Below, piece after piece: positions 9,555-56,990 of a stretch of DNA of 64,000 bases; the first letter of the stretch is position 1, and every line of letters starts with the position of its first letter. Origin of the DNA: Cupriavidus alkaliphilus (GTDB taxonomy: Bacteria; Pseudomonadota; Gammaproteobacteria; Burkholderiales; Burkholderiaceae); the NCBI RefSeq assembly GCF_900094595.1, contig NZ_FMAD01000007.1, positions 310,001-374,000 on the forward strand, read 5' to 3'. A model generated the notes under the pieces. That model saw nothing but the letters and a program-made list of their open reading frames with translations. It searched no databases and was not told where the DNA came from. The translations under genes and the position numbers were made by a program.

Positions 9555-11642
<2,088 letters not shown>

Positions 11643-50984: not shown

Positions 50985-51806
50985 ATGTCCCGCCGCGCCC
51001 AGGCCTTGCGCCGCCTCGCCGCCCCGCTACTCTGCATCGCCCTGCTGCCGGCGGCGCATGGCGGCGAGATCAAGCTGGCCACCACCACCAGCACCGAGAA
51101 CTCGGGCCTGCTCAAGCACCTGCTGCCGCGTTTCGAGAAAACGTCGGGCGTCACCGTGAAGGTGATCGCGGTGGGCTCGGGCAAGGCCATGAAGATGGGG
51201 GAGATGGGCGATGTCGACGTGCTGCTGGTGCATGCGCGCAAGATGGAAGACGCGTTCGTCGCCGCCGGCTACGGCATCAACCGGCGCGACGTGATGTACA
51301 ACGACTTCATCTTGGTCGGCCCGGCCAGCGACCCGGCTGGGGTCAAAGGCGGCAAGGATGTGCTGGCCGGCCTGCGCAAGCTCGCCGCCAGCGGCAGCAA
51401 GTTCATCTCGCGCGGCGACAACTCCGGCACCGACGTGATGGAGAAGGATTACTGGAAGCAGCTCGGCATCGAACCCAAGGGCCAGCCGTGGTACGTCAAC
51501 GCCGGCCTGGGCATGGGCGAGGTGCTGACCATGGCGGCGCAGATGCCCGCCTATACGCTGTCGGACCGCGCCACCTACGGCGCTTACCGGGCAAAAACCG
51601 GGCTCATGATCGCCATCGAAGGCGACCCGAAGATGTTCAATCCGTACGGGATCATCGCGGTCAACCCGGCCAGGCATCCGGGTATCAACTACAAGGATGC
51701 GATGAAGCTGGTCGAATGGATCACGTCAAGGGAAGGACAGGAGGCGATTGCGGGGTATAAGGTTGAGGGCGAACAGCTGTTCTTTCCCAACTACGGTACG
51801 AAATAA
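50985..51806 (+). CDS. tupA: Tungstate ABC transporter substrate-binding protein
   Basis: 273 residues with a signal peptide (APLLCIALLPAAHGGE) and the TupA pattern IKLATTTSTENSGLLKHLLP. TupA is the high-affinity periplasmic tungstate receptor of a TupABC importer. The start has an AAGGAG SD. No permease (tupB) or ATPase (tupC) follows; an accessory region begins instead. The protein is full length, so the gene itself is intact. Confidence 0.88.
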   Translation: MSRRAQALRRLAAPLLCIALLPAAHGGEIKLATTTSTENSGLLKHLLPRFEKTSGVTVKVIAVGSGKAMKMGEMGDVDVLLVHARKMEDAFVAAGYGINRRDVMYNDFILVGPASDPAGVKGGKDVLAGLRKLAASGSKFISRGDNSGTDVMEKDYWKQLGIEPKGQPWYVNAGLGMGEVLTMAAQMPAYTLSDRATYGAYRAKTGLMIAIEGDPKMFNPYGIIAVNPARHPGINYKDAMKLVEWITSREGQEAIAGYKVEGEQLFFPNYGTK

Positions 51807-51948
51807 CACTCAGCCAGAGGCTCCCCTCACCGATCTTGCGTCACCCCAGTAATGCACGGTGTATTCGATCACATCAACCCGTGGCGGGGGGGTCCGCCAC
51901 TATCGAGGGGGCCTTCCTCGCCGCGCACAGACATTAGTTCCCGCCGGG

Positions 51949-52282
51949 CTATTCGCCGAGCTCCCGGCGCAAGTCTCGCGCGACACCTGCATGGCTGGTA
52001 TCACTCATACCCGATAGCAGCAGCGCGTCGTCCACCGGTTCCTGGCGGCGCACATTGAGCGCCGCCAGGTTCGCTAGCGCAGCATCTCGCGTGCCTTTTA
52101 TATCCATCACCCTTGACCGCTAACGCGCCGGGCTTCGCTTGCACCGCGCCGTAGTCACGGATGGCGTCTTCGCGTCGCCAGTATTCGCTCAGGCGTTCGG
52201 CCTTCAGGTTCATGGGCGTGTCCGGCCACTGGACGCTCGGCAAGTGGGAGCAACTATCTAGGTCAACCTCTAACACCGGCAT
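51949..52282 (-). pseudogene. Probable frameshifted gene remnant, unrecognised
   Basis: Two minus-strand frames join end to end. The upstream one (from 52282) reads ...MNLKAERLSEYWRREDAIRD and continues past 52110. The downstream one (52107 to 51949, 52 residues) starts MDIKGTRDAALANLAALNVR and ends RDLRRELGE. Both look protein-like, and the switch at 52100-52130 fits a frameshift. I do not recognise the family. It sits at the boundary of the accessory region and may be debris of an older insertion. The downstream frame could also be an intact 52-residue gene. Confidence 0.35.
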
Positions 52283-52550
52283 CTAGCCGCGATACGGCCT
52301 TCGCGGAACGACTTTCGGTCTGCAGCCGACTCGTTGCCTGTCTCTAAGCGTTGCTGCCACCCGCAGCTTCTGCGGTCCTCAGACAAGGCCTCATCCCTCG
52401 CCAGAAAGACTCATAGGACTCAGGCCACTGCCAAGGCGGGACAATGTTTGAATTCACCGTTCAAATCCCGGATATGAGCATCAAATATCGAATACCTAAT
52501 AAAACGCCGGCGCTGGCATTGAATCATCCCAGCTCATTTCCTACCATCTG
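52283..52550. other. Gene-free stretch at the start of the accessory region
   Basis: No gene is seen here. Base composition shifts from GC-rich to clearly AT-richer after about 52440. A short GTTCAAATCCC stretch near 52460 looks like a tRNA T-arm but no tRNA can be folded around it. Confidence 0.4.
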
Positions 52551-52572
52551 TCAGGCAAAGGCCTGATTTTTA
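52551..52572 (+). terminator. Terminator-like hairpin upstream of the peptide operon
   Basis: A perfect 6-bp stem (TCAGGC/GCCTGA) with an AAAG loop is followed by TTTTTAT on the plus strand. It may end upstream transcription, or attenuate the peptide operon if the promoter lies before it. Confidence 0.5.
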
Positions 52573-52708
52573 TCGCACAAAAATCAGCTTCTTTGCGGGA
52601 CTTCTGGGCAAAAAGTGGCGCAGATATTTTATCTACTCACTCTACGCCGGTATTTTTCTTAGGAAATCACCCCAGGAAATTTCCCATCAAATGTCCAGAA
52701 TTTGATCG

Positions 52709-52722
52709 CCATTTTAAAATGG
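52709..52722. promoter_or_regulatory. 14-bp perfect palindrome before the precursor gene
   Basis: CCATTTTAAAATGG is a perfect palindrome about 10 bp before the SD of the precursor-peptide gene. Its place suggests an operator or an AT-rich promoter part. No regulator gene lies inside the operon. Confidence 0.4.
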
Positions 52723-52742
52723 TTTAACCTCAAGGAGTCGTC

Positions 52743-52904
52743 ATGCAAAATACAGACATCGATCCCATCGTTCAATCATCCGCCGCGGAAACCACGGATC
52801 AGGACATTGACAAGGCCGCGCGAGAAATTGAGCGTCAGATCCAAGGCCGAGCTTGGAACATGAACCAGCCCCTCAATATGATTGCATACGAAGACCAAAG
52901 CTGA
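52743..52904 (+). CDS. Candidate RiPP precursor peptide
   Basis: 53 residues, first gene of the operon. A strong SD (AAGGAG, 5 bp spacing) precedes the ATG. The N-terminal 35 residues are acidic and helical-looking (DIDKAAREIERQIQG), like a leader. The C-terminal part RAWNMNQPLNMIAYEDQS is polar and Asn/Gln/Met-rich, like a core, and repeats the dipeptide NM. There are no Cys, so lanthionine or disulfide formation is excluded. The two downstream oxygenases suggest hydroxylation of Asn, Gln, Asp, Leu, Ile or aromatic side chains. There is no double-glycine site. The precursor call is inference from size, position and neighbours. Confidence 0.6.
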   Translation: MQNTDIDPIVQSSAAETTDQDIDKAAREIERQIQGRAWNMNQPLNMIAYEDQS

Positions 52905-52917
52905 CATCAGCCGAAGC

Positions 52918-52936
52918 GGCGCCCCATTGGGGCGTC
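52918..52936 (+). promoter_or_regulatory. Hairpin between precursor and modification genes
   Basis: GGCGCCCC-ATT-GGGGCGTC folds into an 8-bp stem with one GU pair and a 3-nt loop, 14 bp after the precursor stop. No T-run follows. Such hairpins often raise the precursor:enzyme ratio by partial termination or by protecting the upstream mRNA. Confidence 0.5.
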
Positions 52937-52960
52937 GTCACTTCCAAGAAGGAGTGGATC

Positions 52961-53854
52961 ATGCTTCTGCAATTTGGAATCCAGTCTCAAATCAGCAACT
53001 TGGTGACCCTGATTGGCGCCCAAGATCCGTCTGCCGCCCGCTCTCTTACCTCCATTGGGGACATCCAACGCGCCTATCACAGTTTCATCGAGCATCTACA
53101 AAAGCGACGCCCAAGCGGGGCGCCTGGTGTGACTCGAATTATCACAAGCGCAATAGAAGCAAATCAATTCCGCTCGGTGTTCACAAATGATTCATTGCTT
53201 GATGACAAAATGCAATCCGGAGTTATCAGGGCGCGCAAGGATGTGCAAGCAACGGAGAAGAGATCCCTGCTCAAGCGTGCGCTAAAGGAGCTAGCACTCT
53301 ACTCCAATGAACATCGAATTCTCTTCGACACAGTCATCACTGACATATTCATTCTGCCATCGGAAATCGCGAGAGCAGGCTCGACATCCAACGCATTGGG
53401 CGTGATATGGGCAAATCCAAAAATCCAATATAGCCTGCATGATGTCATTGAGATGCTCGTGCATGAACTCACACATCACGAGATGTTCTTGGACGAACTG
53501 CGTCATGCACACTATGACTACAAGGCCATGCTCGACAAGCGAACGTGGGCTCGATCGGCGATTCTTCATGTCCCACGCCCACTCGATAAAGTTCTGCATA
53601 GTGCAGTGGTTGCAACTGAAATACTACTGCTGCGCGAGCAGATCCTTGGCCACCCCATTCGACCAGCAATTCACCCACCGACGCTGAAGCTAATGAGTTA
53701 TGTGGGTGAGTCCTTAGCTTCAATGGATGCGGTGCTTCATAGCAAATCGTTGAGCAGTGGGATCTTTCTTGACCGCGCTTTTGAAATTTTCGAAAGCGTA
53801 AAGCGAAGCTATACCACGCTCTTGCATTGCCCTCGCGCCGCAGCGCTGCATTAG
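52961..53854 (+). CDS. HExxH-motif protein, putative alpha-ketoglutarate-dependent peptide beta-hydroxylase
   Basis: 297 residues, soluble. MLVHELTHHEMFLDEL places HExxH at residues 168-172. About 35 residues later comes RSAILHVPRPLDKVLHSAVV (Arg206, His213), matching the PRPL...GLLHGAY-like block of the RiPP-associated HEXXH-motif family (TIGR04267 as I remember it), whose members were shown to be alpha-ketoglutarate-dependent beta-hydroxylases rather than proteases. His213 is the candidate third iron ligand. The start at 52961 is set by AAGGAG 5 bp upstream; a longer frame begins inside the precursor gene. A zinc protease remains the main alternative. Confidence 0.6.
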   Translation: MLLQFGIQSQISNLVTLIGAQDPSAARSLTSIGDIQRAYHSFIEHLQKRRPSGAPGVTRIITSAIEANQFRSVFTNDSLLDDKMQSGVIRARKDVQATEKRSLLKRALKELALYSNEHRILFDTVITDIFILPSEIARAGSTSNALGVIWANPKIQYSLHDVIEMLVHELTHHEMFLDELRHAHYDYKAMLDKRTWARSAILHVPRPLDKVLHSAVVATEILLLREQILGHPIRPAIHPPTLKLMSYVGESLASMDAVLHSKSLSSGIFLDRAFEIFESVKRSYTTLLHCPRAAALH

Positions 53855-53879
53855 ATAGTTTTCACGGAGATAGACGCCC

Positions 53880-55265
53880 ATGAGGGAACAGGGAGTCAGA
53901 CGCCTGGCTGAGCTTAAATCACGCCAGTGGAAGGACCTCTTCCTGCTTTCGGCGGCAGGTTGGACGCTTATTCTTATCCTGATCCACCAGGGAGTCATTG
54001 CTGCCTCATCGTATTTCCTGACACGGTTGATCGAAGCATTCCAGGCGGGGACCGACTATCGGTCCTACCTATTCGAATACCTTTTGGCCATGGTGCTTCC
54101 CTATTTGCCCGGTTGCGCATCCCTCGTCGCCCTGCAGGCCTGGATCAACCAAGCTCACCGTAGATTCTCAGCACGCCTTCCGGAGGCCATTTTCGGACAT
54201 ACAGGCAAGCACAACGACAATGCTCTCCGGGAAGCCACCGAGGCTGCCTATTCGAGGAATTCATTCGCGGCATTGAAGGACTATCTGACGTTCGTGCATC
54301 AGTTTGCCACCCTGTGCTTGAACAGCGTGCTTAGCATCGTCGTTTTGGCTTTGCTGCTGCCGGCGAATCTCTTGGAGGGATATATGGTGAGTGTCCTCGC
54401 TTCGATGACGTTGATCCTGCTGCTGCGGCCGGGCGTTCATTCACTATCAACAAAGACTGAAACCGCCCTCATCTCCTATGGAGATGCACTCTCACAGGTC
54501 TGGGATAACTCTGTGCTAGGAAATAGGTACAACTTTGAACTATGGAATAATTATCGGGAACAACTCGCGTCGAAATATTATCGACAGTCGAACAAACTGC
54601 AGTTCTTGAAGCAAGCCGGAAATCTGGCACTCGCGCTTATCTCTTTGGCACCAACCACCTATCTCATCCTCGTTGCTGTTCAGAGCAAATCAGCGGAGCC
54701 AATTCTGATCGCTGCAATTGTTGTTAATCTGACGCGGATCTTTCATATCCTCAACTCCCTAAGCGGCCTAGTCAATCAGATTCTGGATTTTTCAGCGATG
54801 AATGCACGTATACGGGTGATGATGAGCCCGGAACTAAAATTTGACGATCCGTCTCATTTTCCTGACAAGCCGCGGGGAGAGATTTATCTCAATGGTGCCC
54901 CGATACATGAATACAAATCGGTGGTGGAAATTGTGCGAAGCTGCAGCCATGGGCGCTTTACGATACAAGGCGCCAACGGCGCTGGAAAATCTACGCTTCT
55001 GCAGGTGCTCAAGCAAGCCTTATCTGGCGATGCTATTTTGGTTCCGAGCCACAACGGCAAACTGCGCTGGCGCGCCACCGGCATTGAAAAATCAACGGGC
55101 GAACGGGCGGTTGGACATTTGCTGGAGATTTCCGAGCATCCCGATGCAAAGTACCTGCTTCTCGATGAATGGGATGCAAACCTTGACGCCGCCAATACCA
55201 AAGCAATCAATGACGTCTTGCGGAATCTTAGCCAGCACAAAGTGATAGTAGAAATCAGACATTAG
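53880..55265 (+). CDS. ABC exporter (fused membrane and ATPase domains) with a compact ATPase
   Basis: 461 residues. The first 300 or so form a six-helix exporter-type domain (segments near residues 28-48, 65-87, 143-160, 165-183, 245-267 and 274-297). The ATPase has Walker A GANGAGKST (364-372), Walker B YLLLDEWDANLD (425-436), a degenerate signature STGERA (405-410) and ends at ...VIVEIRH, whose last His takes the place of the switch His. Only about 33 residues separate Walker A from the signature, where about 90 are usual, so most of the helical subdomain and a clear Q-loop are missing. No peptidase C39 domain. Gaps of 25 and 9 bp flank it. Likely exports the modified peptide. Confidence 0.78.
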   Translation: MREQGVRRLAELKSRQWKDLFLLSAAGWTLILILIHQGVIAASSYFLTRLIEAFQAGTDYRSYLFEYLLAMVLPYLPGCASLVALQAWINQAHRRFSARLPEAIFGHTGKHNDNALREATEAAYSRNSFAALKDYLTFVHQFATLCLNSVLSIVVLALLLPANLLEGYMVSVLASMTLILLLRPGVHSLSTKTETALISYGDALSQVWDNSVLGNRYNFELWNNYREQLASKYYRQSNKLQFLKQAGNLALALISLAPTTYLILVAVQSKSAEPILIAAIVVNLTRIFHILNSLSGLVNQILDFSAMNARIRVMMSPELKFDDPSHFPDKPRGEIYLNGAPIHEYKSVVEIVRSCSHGRFTIQGANGAGKSTLLQVLKQALSGDAILVPSHNGKLRWRATGIEKSTGERAVGHLLEISEHPDAKYLLLDEWDANLDAANTKAINDVLRNLSQHKVIVEIRH

Positions 55266-55274
55266 GAGCTAGCT

Positions 55275-56447
55275 ATGAAAGACTCATATTTAGTGGAAGC
55301 CATTCTCGGCTCAGAGGACCTCCTGCGAAGCTACCGGAATAGAAATTTCTGGAAAGGCAGAATTGATCCCGTGAAGCTGCAATCCATCTTTTCTTGGCAC
55401 CGTCTCAACGAATTGCTTGCCACTCACAGAATCACCAACGATCGTTTGCGCCTTTCTCTAGCGGATGACTACAAGACAGCAAATATGGTGGCCTTTCGGC
55501 CGGGCCGAGACCAGTTCGGGCGGCCGACAGACATTCTTTCCATCAGCGCGCTGCATCAACTTATGGGATGCGGGGTTACTGGCGTTTTGGAAGCGACCCA
55601 GGAACTGGTTCCTCCGCTTGAAGTACTGACATCCGAGATCAGTACCAGGCTCCAAGCGCGCTCTTCAGCCAACGCCTTTTTTTCTTTTGGCTCGTCCTCA
55701 GGCTTTGGGCCACATAACGATGACCATGATGTAATCGTTATTCAATTCTGCGGTCAGAAGCACTGGCAGTTCTTTCGTACTTCCCCCTCTCTAGACAAGG
55801 CTAAGGTGGATGACTTAGCTGCTCCCGGAACAGCGGAAAAGGGCGACTGCGTATTGATGCAAGAAGGCGACGTATTGTTTGTGCCCAAGGGAACCTGGCA
55901 CGACGTATCGGCACTCAACGCGCCAAGCCTTCACGTCACCATCAGTATCGTCTTTCCAACGATGTCCGACTTTATCAGATGGCTATTGACAAAACATCGC
56001 TACAGCATTCCTTTTCAGGATATCCGCAGCGATGATGATCCGAGCACGGTTGCCGCCATCTGCGCCGACTTCCTTCATACTGAAATAGGATGTGACACCG
56101 TATCAACCTTTCTGAATGAATACTACGCCCGGCACTCTGCGCGAAGAATTAACCCCGCATTCCCCCATCTTAACCGGGTGACACCTGGAGATTCCTTCAT
56201 TCGTTTGCCATACACCTTCATAACATTGCACAACGACAAACGACTCGCAACACGTACGATCTCGGCTTTAGGGCGGAAACATTGCATTAGCGAGTTGGAG
56301 CATGAAGTACTAAAGCGGCTTTCTCACAAAGCTCCCAGCACACTGAAAGATATTCAATCGTTCAATCCAAAACACGGACCTAACACAGCGGCGACCATCA
56401 AGGCAATTGAGGGCCTGTTGGACAAAGGGCTAATTTCCAAGATGTGA
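55275..56447 (+). CDS. JmjC/cupin-type 2-oxoglutarate oxygenase, putative peptide hydroxylase
   Basis: 390 residues. The iron site is visible as SSGFGPHNDDHDVIVIQFCG (His147, Asp149) and FVPKGTWHDV (His209), the HxD...H pattern of the JmjC/Cupin_4 (RoxA, NO66) family. GQKHWQFF after the first motif is also typical. The last 80 residues resemble the winged-helix tail of the same family (FNPKHGPNTAATIKAIEGLL). Known members hydroxylate Arg or His of ribosomal proteins. Beside a small peptide gene and an HExxH enzyme, a peptide substrate is more likely. Last gene of the operon; no clear terminator follows. Confidence 0.75.
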   Translation: MKDSYLVEAILGSEDLLRSYRNRNFWKGRIDPVKLQSIFSWHRLNELLATHRITNDRLRLSLADDYKTANMVAFRPGRDQFGRPTDILSISALHQLMGCGVTGVLEATQELVPPLEVLTSEISTRLQARSSANAFFSFGSSSGFGPHNDDHDVIVIQFCGQKHWQFFRTSPSLDKAKVDDLAAPGTAEKGDCVLMQEGDVLFVPKGTWHDVSALNAPSLHVTISIVFPTMSDFIRWLLTKHRYSIPFQDIRSDDDPSTVAAICADFLHTEIGCDTVSTFLNEYYARHSARRINPAFPHLNRVTPGDSFIRLPYTFITLHNDKRLATRTISALGRKHCISELEHEVLKRLSHKAPSTLKDIQSFNPKHGPNTAATIKAIEGLLDKGLISKM

Positions 56448-56497
56448 GCAACTGTAATATGTACCCAGATACACCGTACTTGACGTTTTAAATACTC

Positions 56498-56836
56498 TCA
56501 GCCGTCATTGCCTCTTCGCTCGAGAACAAAGTCCGCCTCTACCTCTCTCACCCCGGGCAGTCGCACCATGACGTGAACACGAATATTCCGCAGATTCTCG
56601 CGGTGTCTGCAGAGGAAGTCCAAGATCGGCTCGAGTTGACGCCAACGGCGCACTGAACCTCGTACGGTTGAAAGGACGAAGTGTCGCTCACCCATTTGGA
56701 ACTCAACGAGCCAAGCCTTCTCATGCTGCCGATATACATCCACGTCAATTGAAGCAGGCAACATCCCTGCCAGATGCCGGATTTCCTGTATCGTGACCAG
56801 GGTCGCCTGATTTACTTCCAGCTGAGCTTCCAGCAT
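56498..56836 (-). CDS. Hypothetical protein, plasmid-partition-protein-like
   Basis: 112 residues from MLEAQLEVNQ, with GGAG 9 bp upstream. The segment KAWLVEFQMGERHFVLSTVR followed by RQLEPILDFL resembles the small proteins annotated as plasmid replication/partition related in Burkholderiales. The likeness is from memory and weak. It faces the peptide operon and may mark the right edge of the accessory region. Confidence 0.5.
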   Translation of the reverse strand: MLEAQLEVNQATLVTIQEIRHLAGMLPASIDVDVYRQHEKAWLVEFQMGERHFVLSTVRGSVRRWRQLEPILDFLCRHRENLRNIRVHVMVRLPGVREVEADFVLERRGNDG

Positions 56837-56990
56837 TTTACGATCTCCGCGTCGAGGATACCGGGGCGCGTCGCACAATCTACGACCCCATTCCTACTGC
56901 GGCAATTGCAATTTTCCAAGCACTACCTGAACCTTTTCAGCCTCTGTGGCCTGAACGGGGCAGCATCAGTCGATTTGAGCGGGATCAGCC

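Follow-up and report, generated by a model that had tools for sequence, protein, structure and literature searches.

Several peptide systems with an alpha-ketoglutarate-dependent HExxH (aKG-HExxH) oxygenase have been described. aKG-HExxH enzymes beta-hydroxylate His, Asp, Phe, Gln, and Pro residues (PMC13060819), and PflC cleaves the peptide backbone oxidatively at the Ala of ARMD (PMC12636437). In the biphenomycin clusters bip and bpm, one precursor of a ribosomally synthesized and post-translationally modified peptide (RiPP) is served by the JmjC-type ornithine hydroxylase BipG/BpmG and by the aKG-HExxH enzyme BipH/BpmH (PMC12707348, PMC12257519). Here we analyzed a 64,000-nucleotide stretch of the Cupriavidus alkaliphilus genome (contig NZ_FMAD01000007.1, positions 310,001 to 374,000; hereafter the window), in which a four-gene operon likewise holds a JmjC and an aKG-HExxH protein for one presumed precursor. 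The best explanation, which we consider probable as a whole, is that the operon lies in a horizontally acquired RiPP cassette, where the HExxH enzyme would act on a MIA[YF][ED] box of the peptide, the JmjC enzyme on a W-N box, and an ATP-binding cassette (ABC) protein would export the product.

The known systems share single traits with this cassette and differ in others. The biphenomycin clusters additionally contain a multinuclear non-heme iron-dependent oxidative enzyme (MNIO) with its partner, an arginase, a B12-dependent radical S-adenosylmethionine (SAM) enzyme, a TldD-type protease, an FRF core and, in bip, a major facilitator superfamily (MFS) transporter (PMC12707348, PMC12257519). 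None of these enzymes, nor an MFS transporter, was seen in the five cassette open reading frames (ORFs) scanned, nor the FRF core in the window peptide. PflC and PosC of the Pseudomonas pfl and pos clusters are, like the window enzyme, stand-alone aKG-HExxH proteins; they come with no protease gene, and Pfl and Pos have a conserved C-terminal motif with a critical Ala (PMC12636437). Unlike the window peptide, Pfl and Pos have a nitrile hydratase leader peptide (NHLP)-type leader, a Gln run and ARMD, and their clusters encode an MNIO-nitroreductase fusion, with JmjC unmentioned among the pfl genes listed (PMC12636437). Neither the Gln run with an ARMD core nor an MNIO-nitroreductase was found in the window cassette. 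PesO of the nitrilobacillin pes cluster is also a stand-alone aKG-HExxH enzyme in a RiPP cluster, but there it accompanies an MNIO, a nitrile synthetase, and Pro hydroxylation (PMC13060819). ChlB has an HExxH domain of the same fold as the window protein, but the domain is fused to a radical SAM enzyme and requires a preinstalled cyclophane (as told in PMC12636437). Finally, NO66, MINA53, and YcfD resemble the window JmjC protein in whole-length fold and in the H-x-D..H triad; their substrate is a ribosomal protein, whereas that of the window enzyme is presumably the cassette-encoded peptide.

Literature searches, which covered few subscription papers and no supplementary files, returned neither the peptide family, the minimal gene set nor the varying second enzymes, and the core strings gave matches unrelated by title. 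A reading of the DNA by a model that saw only the letters and their ORFs (the sequence-only reading) had called the operon undescribed. This agrees with our searches for the peptide family and gene set, but the pairing of an aKG-HExxH with a JmjC enzyme is already present in the biphenomycin clusters. What is known, then, is the enzyme families and their coexistence in one RiPP cluster; what is apparently new is the peptide family and its minimal gene set. The HExxH protein of this peptide group may be an unlabelled node in the published HExxH similarity network.

The four genes lie on the plus strand in the order peptide, HExxH, ABC, and JmjC, as had been proposed from the letters, and both the ORFs and the family matches agree with it. 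They are separated by 56, 25, and 9 bp. The features of the locus are as follows.

52743-52904, plus strand: precursor peptide gene, 53 amino acids (aa)
52854-52877, plus strand: W-N box WNMNQPLN, residues 38-45 of the peptide
52878-52895, plus strand: family-wide box MIAYED, residues 46-51, proposed target of the HExxH enzyme
52916-52938, plus strand: RNA hairpin predicted by folding between the precursor and HExxH genes
52961-53854, plus strand: aKG-HExxH peptide oxygenase gene, 297 aa, HExxH motif at codons 168-172
53880-55265, plus strand: ABC exporter gene, 461 aa, membrane domain and a very short nucleotide-binding domain
55275-56447, plus strand: JmjC_2 oxygenase gene, 390 aa, NO66/YcfD type with a winged-helix/RRE-like C-terminal domain (RRE, RiPP recognition element; see below)
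51795-56989, no strand: low-GC inserted cassette, from blastn against six same-genus genomes without it

For the HExxH gene we chose the ATG start that aligns with the homologues; a longer in-frame TTG start lies at 52853.

The central evidence comes from relatives of the HExxH protein, which were pooled from family, order (via the ABC protein), and class samples, genome contigs, and plasmids. The protein is rare among the sampled genomes (5 of 249 in the family; 1 of 369 in the class, the window's own). Scanning genome contigs with the HExxH alignment gave 15 loci and the plasmid search five records, whereas none of the 93 pattern matches from a scan of genome contigs with the single window sequence was confirmed as a relative. 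Viral contigs scanned for HExxH gave 72 pattern matches, none of them confirmed, and one distant phage relative was found. After three duplicates (L013 = L006, L019 = L012, L020 = L007) and a second, same-score Acinetobacter plasmid were dropped, 19 loci remained; three Staphylococcus plasmids and one phage with more distant HExxH proteins were set aside. Loci of HExxH homologues lacking the peptide gene were what the sequence-only reading had named beforehand as counting against it. Of the 19 non-redundant loci, 17 have a homologous peptide gene whose end lies 22-110 bp upstream of HExxH and whose product has the C-terminus M-[IV]-A-[YF]-[ED]. A RiPP-type operon that combines a compact exporter with iron oxygenases of two unrelated families is well supported. 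As a control, all ATG-started ORFs of 20-120 aa on both strands of the 17 loci were examined. The motif is present near the end of 17 of these 2,054 short ORFs; each of the 17 loci has a single one, immediately upstream of its HExxH gene.

The core of the window peptide is WNMNQPLNMIAYEDQS, and the C-terminus of the peptide reads WNMNQPLN-MIAYEDQS. The codons of the core vary at synonymous positions across loci, which indicates that selection acts on the peptide; the MIA-tailed peptide thus appears to be a precursor under protein-level selection. Judged by reading of the sequence, about residues 1-37 look helical and would form the leader.

The loci fall into three operon types. Type 1 comprises eight loci (the window, Cupriavidus IDO, Duganella, Noviherbaspirillum, Burkholderia, two Herbaspirillum, and Paraburkholderia) with the core W-N-x-N-x-x-L-N-MIAYE-[DG]-Q and genes for HExxH, ABC, and JmjC proteins; in L014 the JmjC frame is interrupted close to a contig end, and in L007 a frameshift lies early in the HExxH gene. 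The ABC and JmjC proteins of the Cupriavidus IDO locus are 100% identical to those of the locus in G214, a genome of the same genus as the window. Type 2 (two Acinetobacter loci, one of them on a plasmid, Bordetella, and Moraxella) has the core [LM]-R-MIAY-[DE] with HExxH and ABC proteins, and no JmjC was found there. Type 3 (two Bdellovibrionaceae, Rhizobium, and one unplaced proteobacterium) has peptides that terminate in the core M-[IN]-M-[IV]-AFD, together with an HExxH gene. All three type 3 loci whose contig continues encode a 365-370-aa cupin-like protein with an HDHD motif beside HExxH, as listed here.

L023:8856-9953: cupin-like HDHD protein, Bdellovibrionaceae or Rhizobium
L026:8836-9939: cupin-like HDHD protein, Bdellovibrionaceae or Rhizobium
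L025:8803-9915: cupin-like HDHD protein, Bdellovibrionaceae or Rhizobium

Both Bdellovibrionaceae loci continue with an ABC gene; none was detected in Rhizobium. The cupin-like protein matched no Pfam or NCBIfam family, and a comparison with JmjC revealed no homology (hhalign probability 0.45%). When four JmjC proteins were used as tblastn queries, none of the nine loci counted without JmjC gave a match; L024, whose contig ends 346 bp after the HExxH gene, cannot be judged. In the tree, the JmjC loci form one clade (93/95) and the type 3 loci another (100/99), while those of type 2 do not group together as one clade. The conserved set is the precursor and the HExxH protein, usually with the ABC protein. 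The four-gene set of the sequence-only reading is real in the window, but it represents the form of a single clade within a wider family in which JmjC is absent or replaced elsewhere.

We propose that the precursor consists of the leader and the WNMNQPLN-MIAYEDQS core, and that two enzymes divide the core between them. The MIA[YF][ED] box is assigned to the HExxH enzyme because this is the one enzyme in all operon types. The reaction would most likely be beta-hydroxylation of the Tyr/Phe or Asp/Glu residue. The W-N box (W-N-x-N-x-x-L-N) is assigned to the JmjC enzyme because the two co-occur: the box is present in 8/8 loci with JmjC and in 1/9 without it, namely L009, a decayed type 1 operon. 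It holds three Asn residues in the eight loci with JmjC, and we guess, from this conservation and the hydroxylation habits of JmjC enzymes, that an Asn would be the most likely target. The compact ABC exporter would then carry the product out. Hydroxylation of the peptide at several positions by both enzymes, as the sequence-only reading proposed, is likewise an inference.

Several observations weigh against this explanation. L009 retains the W-N box although no JmjC was found and its HExxH gene is truncated. L008 (decayed, with the start of HExxH lost) and L027 (distant, Frankiaceae) are HExxH loci in which the peptide motif is missing in any frame. L008 and L009 are decayed operon copies with HExxH truncated at one or the other end, with ABC kept and no JmjC found; they suggest that the cassette is dispensable. 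HExxH is also rare in the genomes sampled. In addition, since traits are inherited by descent, the association of JmjC with the W-N box rests on one clade and not on independent gains.

The chemistry at the MIA[YF][ED] box could also differ from hydroxylation. By analogy with PflC, the HExxH enzyme might cut the peptide oxidatively at the invariant Ala and leave ...NMI-NH2, with the tail discarded and hydroxylation secondary. The Ala is, together with Met, the box residue identical in all 17 cores, and the AYED and AYDD tails fit A-x-x-D like ARMD, whose Ala is critical (PMC12636437). The tails AYDN, AYEG, and AFD, however, fall outside A-x-x-D, and the peptide has no Gln run as in PflA. The conserved Y/F and E/D residues past the Ala would also be odd in a discarded tail, although ARMD is conserved too. 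We regard cleavage as unlikely, but as the strongest competitor of hydroxylation.

The assignment of the HExxH protein rests on both family and fold. The window protein matches TIGR04267 (aKG-HExxH peptide beta-hydroxylase) at 60.3 bits against a cutoff of 40; this model is matched by all 14 members of the HExxH alignment A5, window included, with E up to 0.01. One relative carries the NCBI annotation 'HEXXH motif-containing putative peptide modification protein'. A sequence-profile search of solved structures gave nothing, so that a fold comparison was needed, and PHROGs gave no match. The predicted structure (mean predicted local distance difference test (pLDDT) 90.2) resembles the ChlB HExxH domain 8s5f (Foldseek E 2.6e-8; Z 20.2, root-mean-square deviation 3.6, 243 residues aligned, 14% identity) and SjiH (Z 16.9), and the next row has Z 7.0. 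No other solved fold stands out. By match and model, the protein belongs to the aKG-HExxH peptide hydroxylase family.

The same data bear on the alternative of a zinc protease (zincin), with the HExxH protein removing the leader and JmjC as the sole oxidizer. The HExxH motif itself would suit a zincin, PflC hydrolyzes when its leader is missing (PMC12636437), and weak zinc-peptidase fold matches were found (4l7a, Foldseek E 0.016-0.022; zinc-protease rows, Z 5.5-5.8). Moreover, the five cassette ORFs scanned against domain families gave no peptidase family or domain, although a protease could be encoded elsewhere. On the other side, TIGR04267 is above its cutoff, the ChlB domain fold lies far above any protease, whose folds sit at background level, and both the HExxH gene and the core are retained in operons that lack JmjC. 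A protease role is very improbable.

The window JmjC protein matches PF08007 (JmjC_2) at 79.8 bits (cutoff 22). Its H-x-D..H triad, H147, D149, and H209, is invariant in 7/7 proteins and aligns with that of NO66, and we take these residues to be the iron ligands by homology. The model is of middling quality (mean pLDDT 77.2; 55 to 77 over five models), and it matches NO66, MINA53, and YcfD over the whole length (Z 17-21, 15-19% identity). Family match and model point to a JmjC_2 oxygenase of the NO66/YcfD ribosomal-oxygenase type. The last 90 residues are modeled as four strands followed by three helices. Some PF08007 proteins carry an RRE-like winged helix, and the closest bacterial ones are reported from RiPP-like contexts (PMC12710340); the modeled C-terminal domain is compatible with such a peptide-binding winged helix. 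PHROGs gave partial matches of unknown function. The HExxH and JmjC family samples of 249 genomes were taken as one sample, since the listed genomes coincide. JmjC was found at E < 1e-180 in three of these genomes, the same three that hold all four genes, and nine more have only partial, distant matches (E 3e-34 to 4e-18). A further alternative is that the small ORF is no substrate: the JmjC enzyme would modify a ribosomal protein, as NO66 and YcfD do, and the cassette would be a module for transport or stress that includes a leader peptide. Ribosomal oxygenases as the best folds of the JmjC model would suit this view, but it is just as hard to credit as the protease. The core is conserved at the protein level with synonymous codon differences, although the HExxH enzymes share no more than 27-59% identity with that of the window; the W-N box follows JmjC in its occurrence, and in the family sample this JmjC subfamily was found only with the operon.

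The exporter is unusually compact. In the window protein, Walker A lies at 364, STGE at 405, and DEWDANLD at 429, and the protein ends at H461, so that Walker A and signature are 41 residues apart. In all 14 ABC proteins examined, 39-43 residues separate Walker A and the signature, STG[EQ] or SDGN, and 12 of the 14 contain the exact Walker B string DEWDA. Family matches of the window protein are weak. It misses the ABC_tran cutoff of 25 for a canonical exporter with a score of 20.1, as does the Bdellovibrionaceae protein with 20.7, while the Bordetella fusion is just above it with 25.7; PHROGs gave partial ABC-type matches. Among the sampled genomes of the order, the ABC protein was found in 2/399, own genome included. 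The pairwise identities of HExxH and ABC proteins correlate (Spearman 0.93, 91 pairs of 14 loci, which are not independent). In Bordetella sp. 02P26C-1 (L012:7413-9677), HExxH and ABC are fused in one 754-aa protein, and this natural fusion suggests a coupling of modification and export. Downstream of the fusion lies an ORF that reads as transposase-like, and no JmjC was found at this locus. A compact ABC relative without HExxH or the MIA motif is located near a toxin-antitoxin pair on the 9.8-kb Psychrobacter plasmid pA11BP3 (L032:4017-5273).

The hairpin between the precursor and HExxH genes has a z of -3.09 in the window and is predicted at the same place in 16/16 loci folded, which are all 17 but L025. 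Its z is below -2.4 in 14 of them, the exceptions being L018 (-0.64) and L012 (-1.34), and the hairpin sequences differ between loci. Placed behind the precursor gene, it could favor an excess of precursor over enzyme message and so let the cell make more peptide than enzyme.

The acquisition of the cassette is suggested by its composition and boundaries. The region had been described as AT-richer DNA in a GC-rich chromosome, and indeed the GC content is 51-53% across 52-57 kb and 64-74% in the five kilobases on each side. Only the six same-genus relatives with both flanks side by side were used for the empty-site comparison; G1001, of the same genus with the flanks on different contigs, and others matching one flank or neither well were left out. 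By blastn, homology ends at 51794 in 6/6 genomes and restarts at 56990, 56991, or 57007. At the empty site both flanking genes adjoin, with aligned ends 44-541 bp apart. These breaks place the operon within inserted DNA of about 5,195 bp. The insertion also holds a 126-aa ORF on the minus strand (56498-56878) with no family above cutoff and no plasmid match, and a 93-aa ORF (52001-52282) gave no match in plasmids, the sole collection searched with it.

A broader interpretation is possible, though we hold it only tentatively. The loci may represent an undescribed RiPP family of Pseudomonadota and Bdellovibrionota with a near-invariant M-[IV]-A-[YF]-[ED] tail, a constant HExxH enzyme, and an interchangeable second enzyme (JmjC, cupin-like or none), each accompanied by an additional core segment of its own. 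With a tail this constant and enzymes that share as little as about 30% identity, the product might be a conserved signal, metal ligand, or cofactor-like compound rather than a fast-evolving antibiotic, possibly matured by backbone cleavage at the Ala. A near-constant tail across both phyla would predict a conserved product with a shared target. With one peptide, two iron oxygenases, and one exporter, the window cassette offers a minimal system for site choice by aKG-HExxH versus JmjC enzymes, and natural variants in which the second enzyme is missing or replaced are available.

Some neighboring and distant loci have features of their own. The Frankiaceae metagenome-assembled genome has two HExxH genes (L027:7713-8585 and 10163-11050), no MIA-type peptide was found there, and the neighbors resemble, by reading, genes for a flavin-dependent oxidoreductase and for methyltransferases. 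The Cupriavidus IDO operon is followed (L006:10998-14343) by an asparagine-synthetase-like protein, for which a macrolactam cyclase is the best NCBIfam match, though below cutoff, and by an ABC transporter; the stretch is lasso-like and has similar translated DNA on both its sides. The distant HExxH loci L029 and L030 (Staphylococcus plasmids) and L031 (phage SPbetaL1) have no MIA motif, and the two of the three that were placed in the tree fall outside the family. In L029 and L030, this different HExxH group stands beside MFS transporters and short ORFs with MQIH-like ends, possibly another RiPP family.

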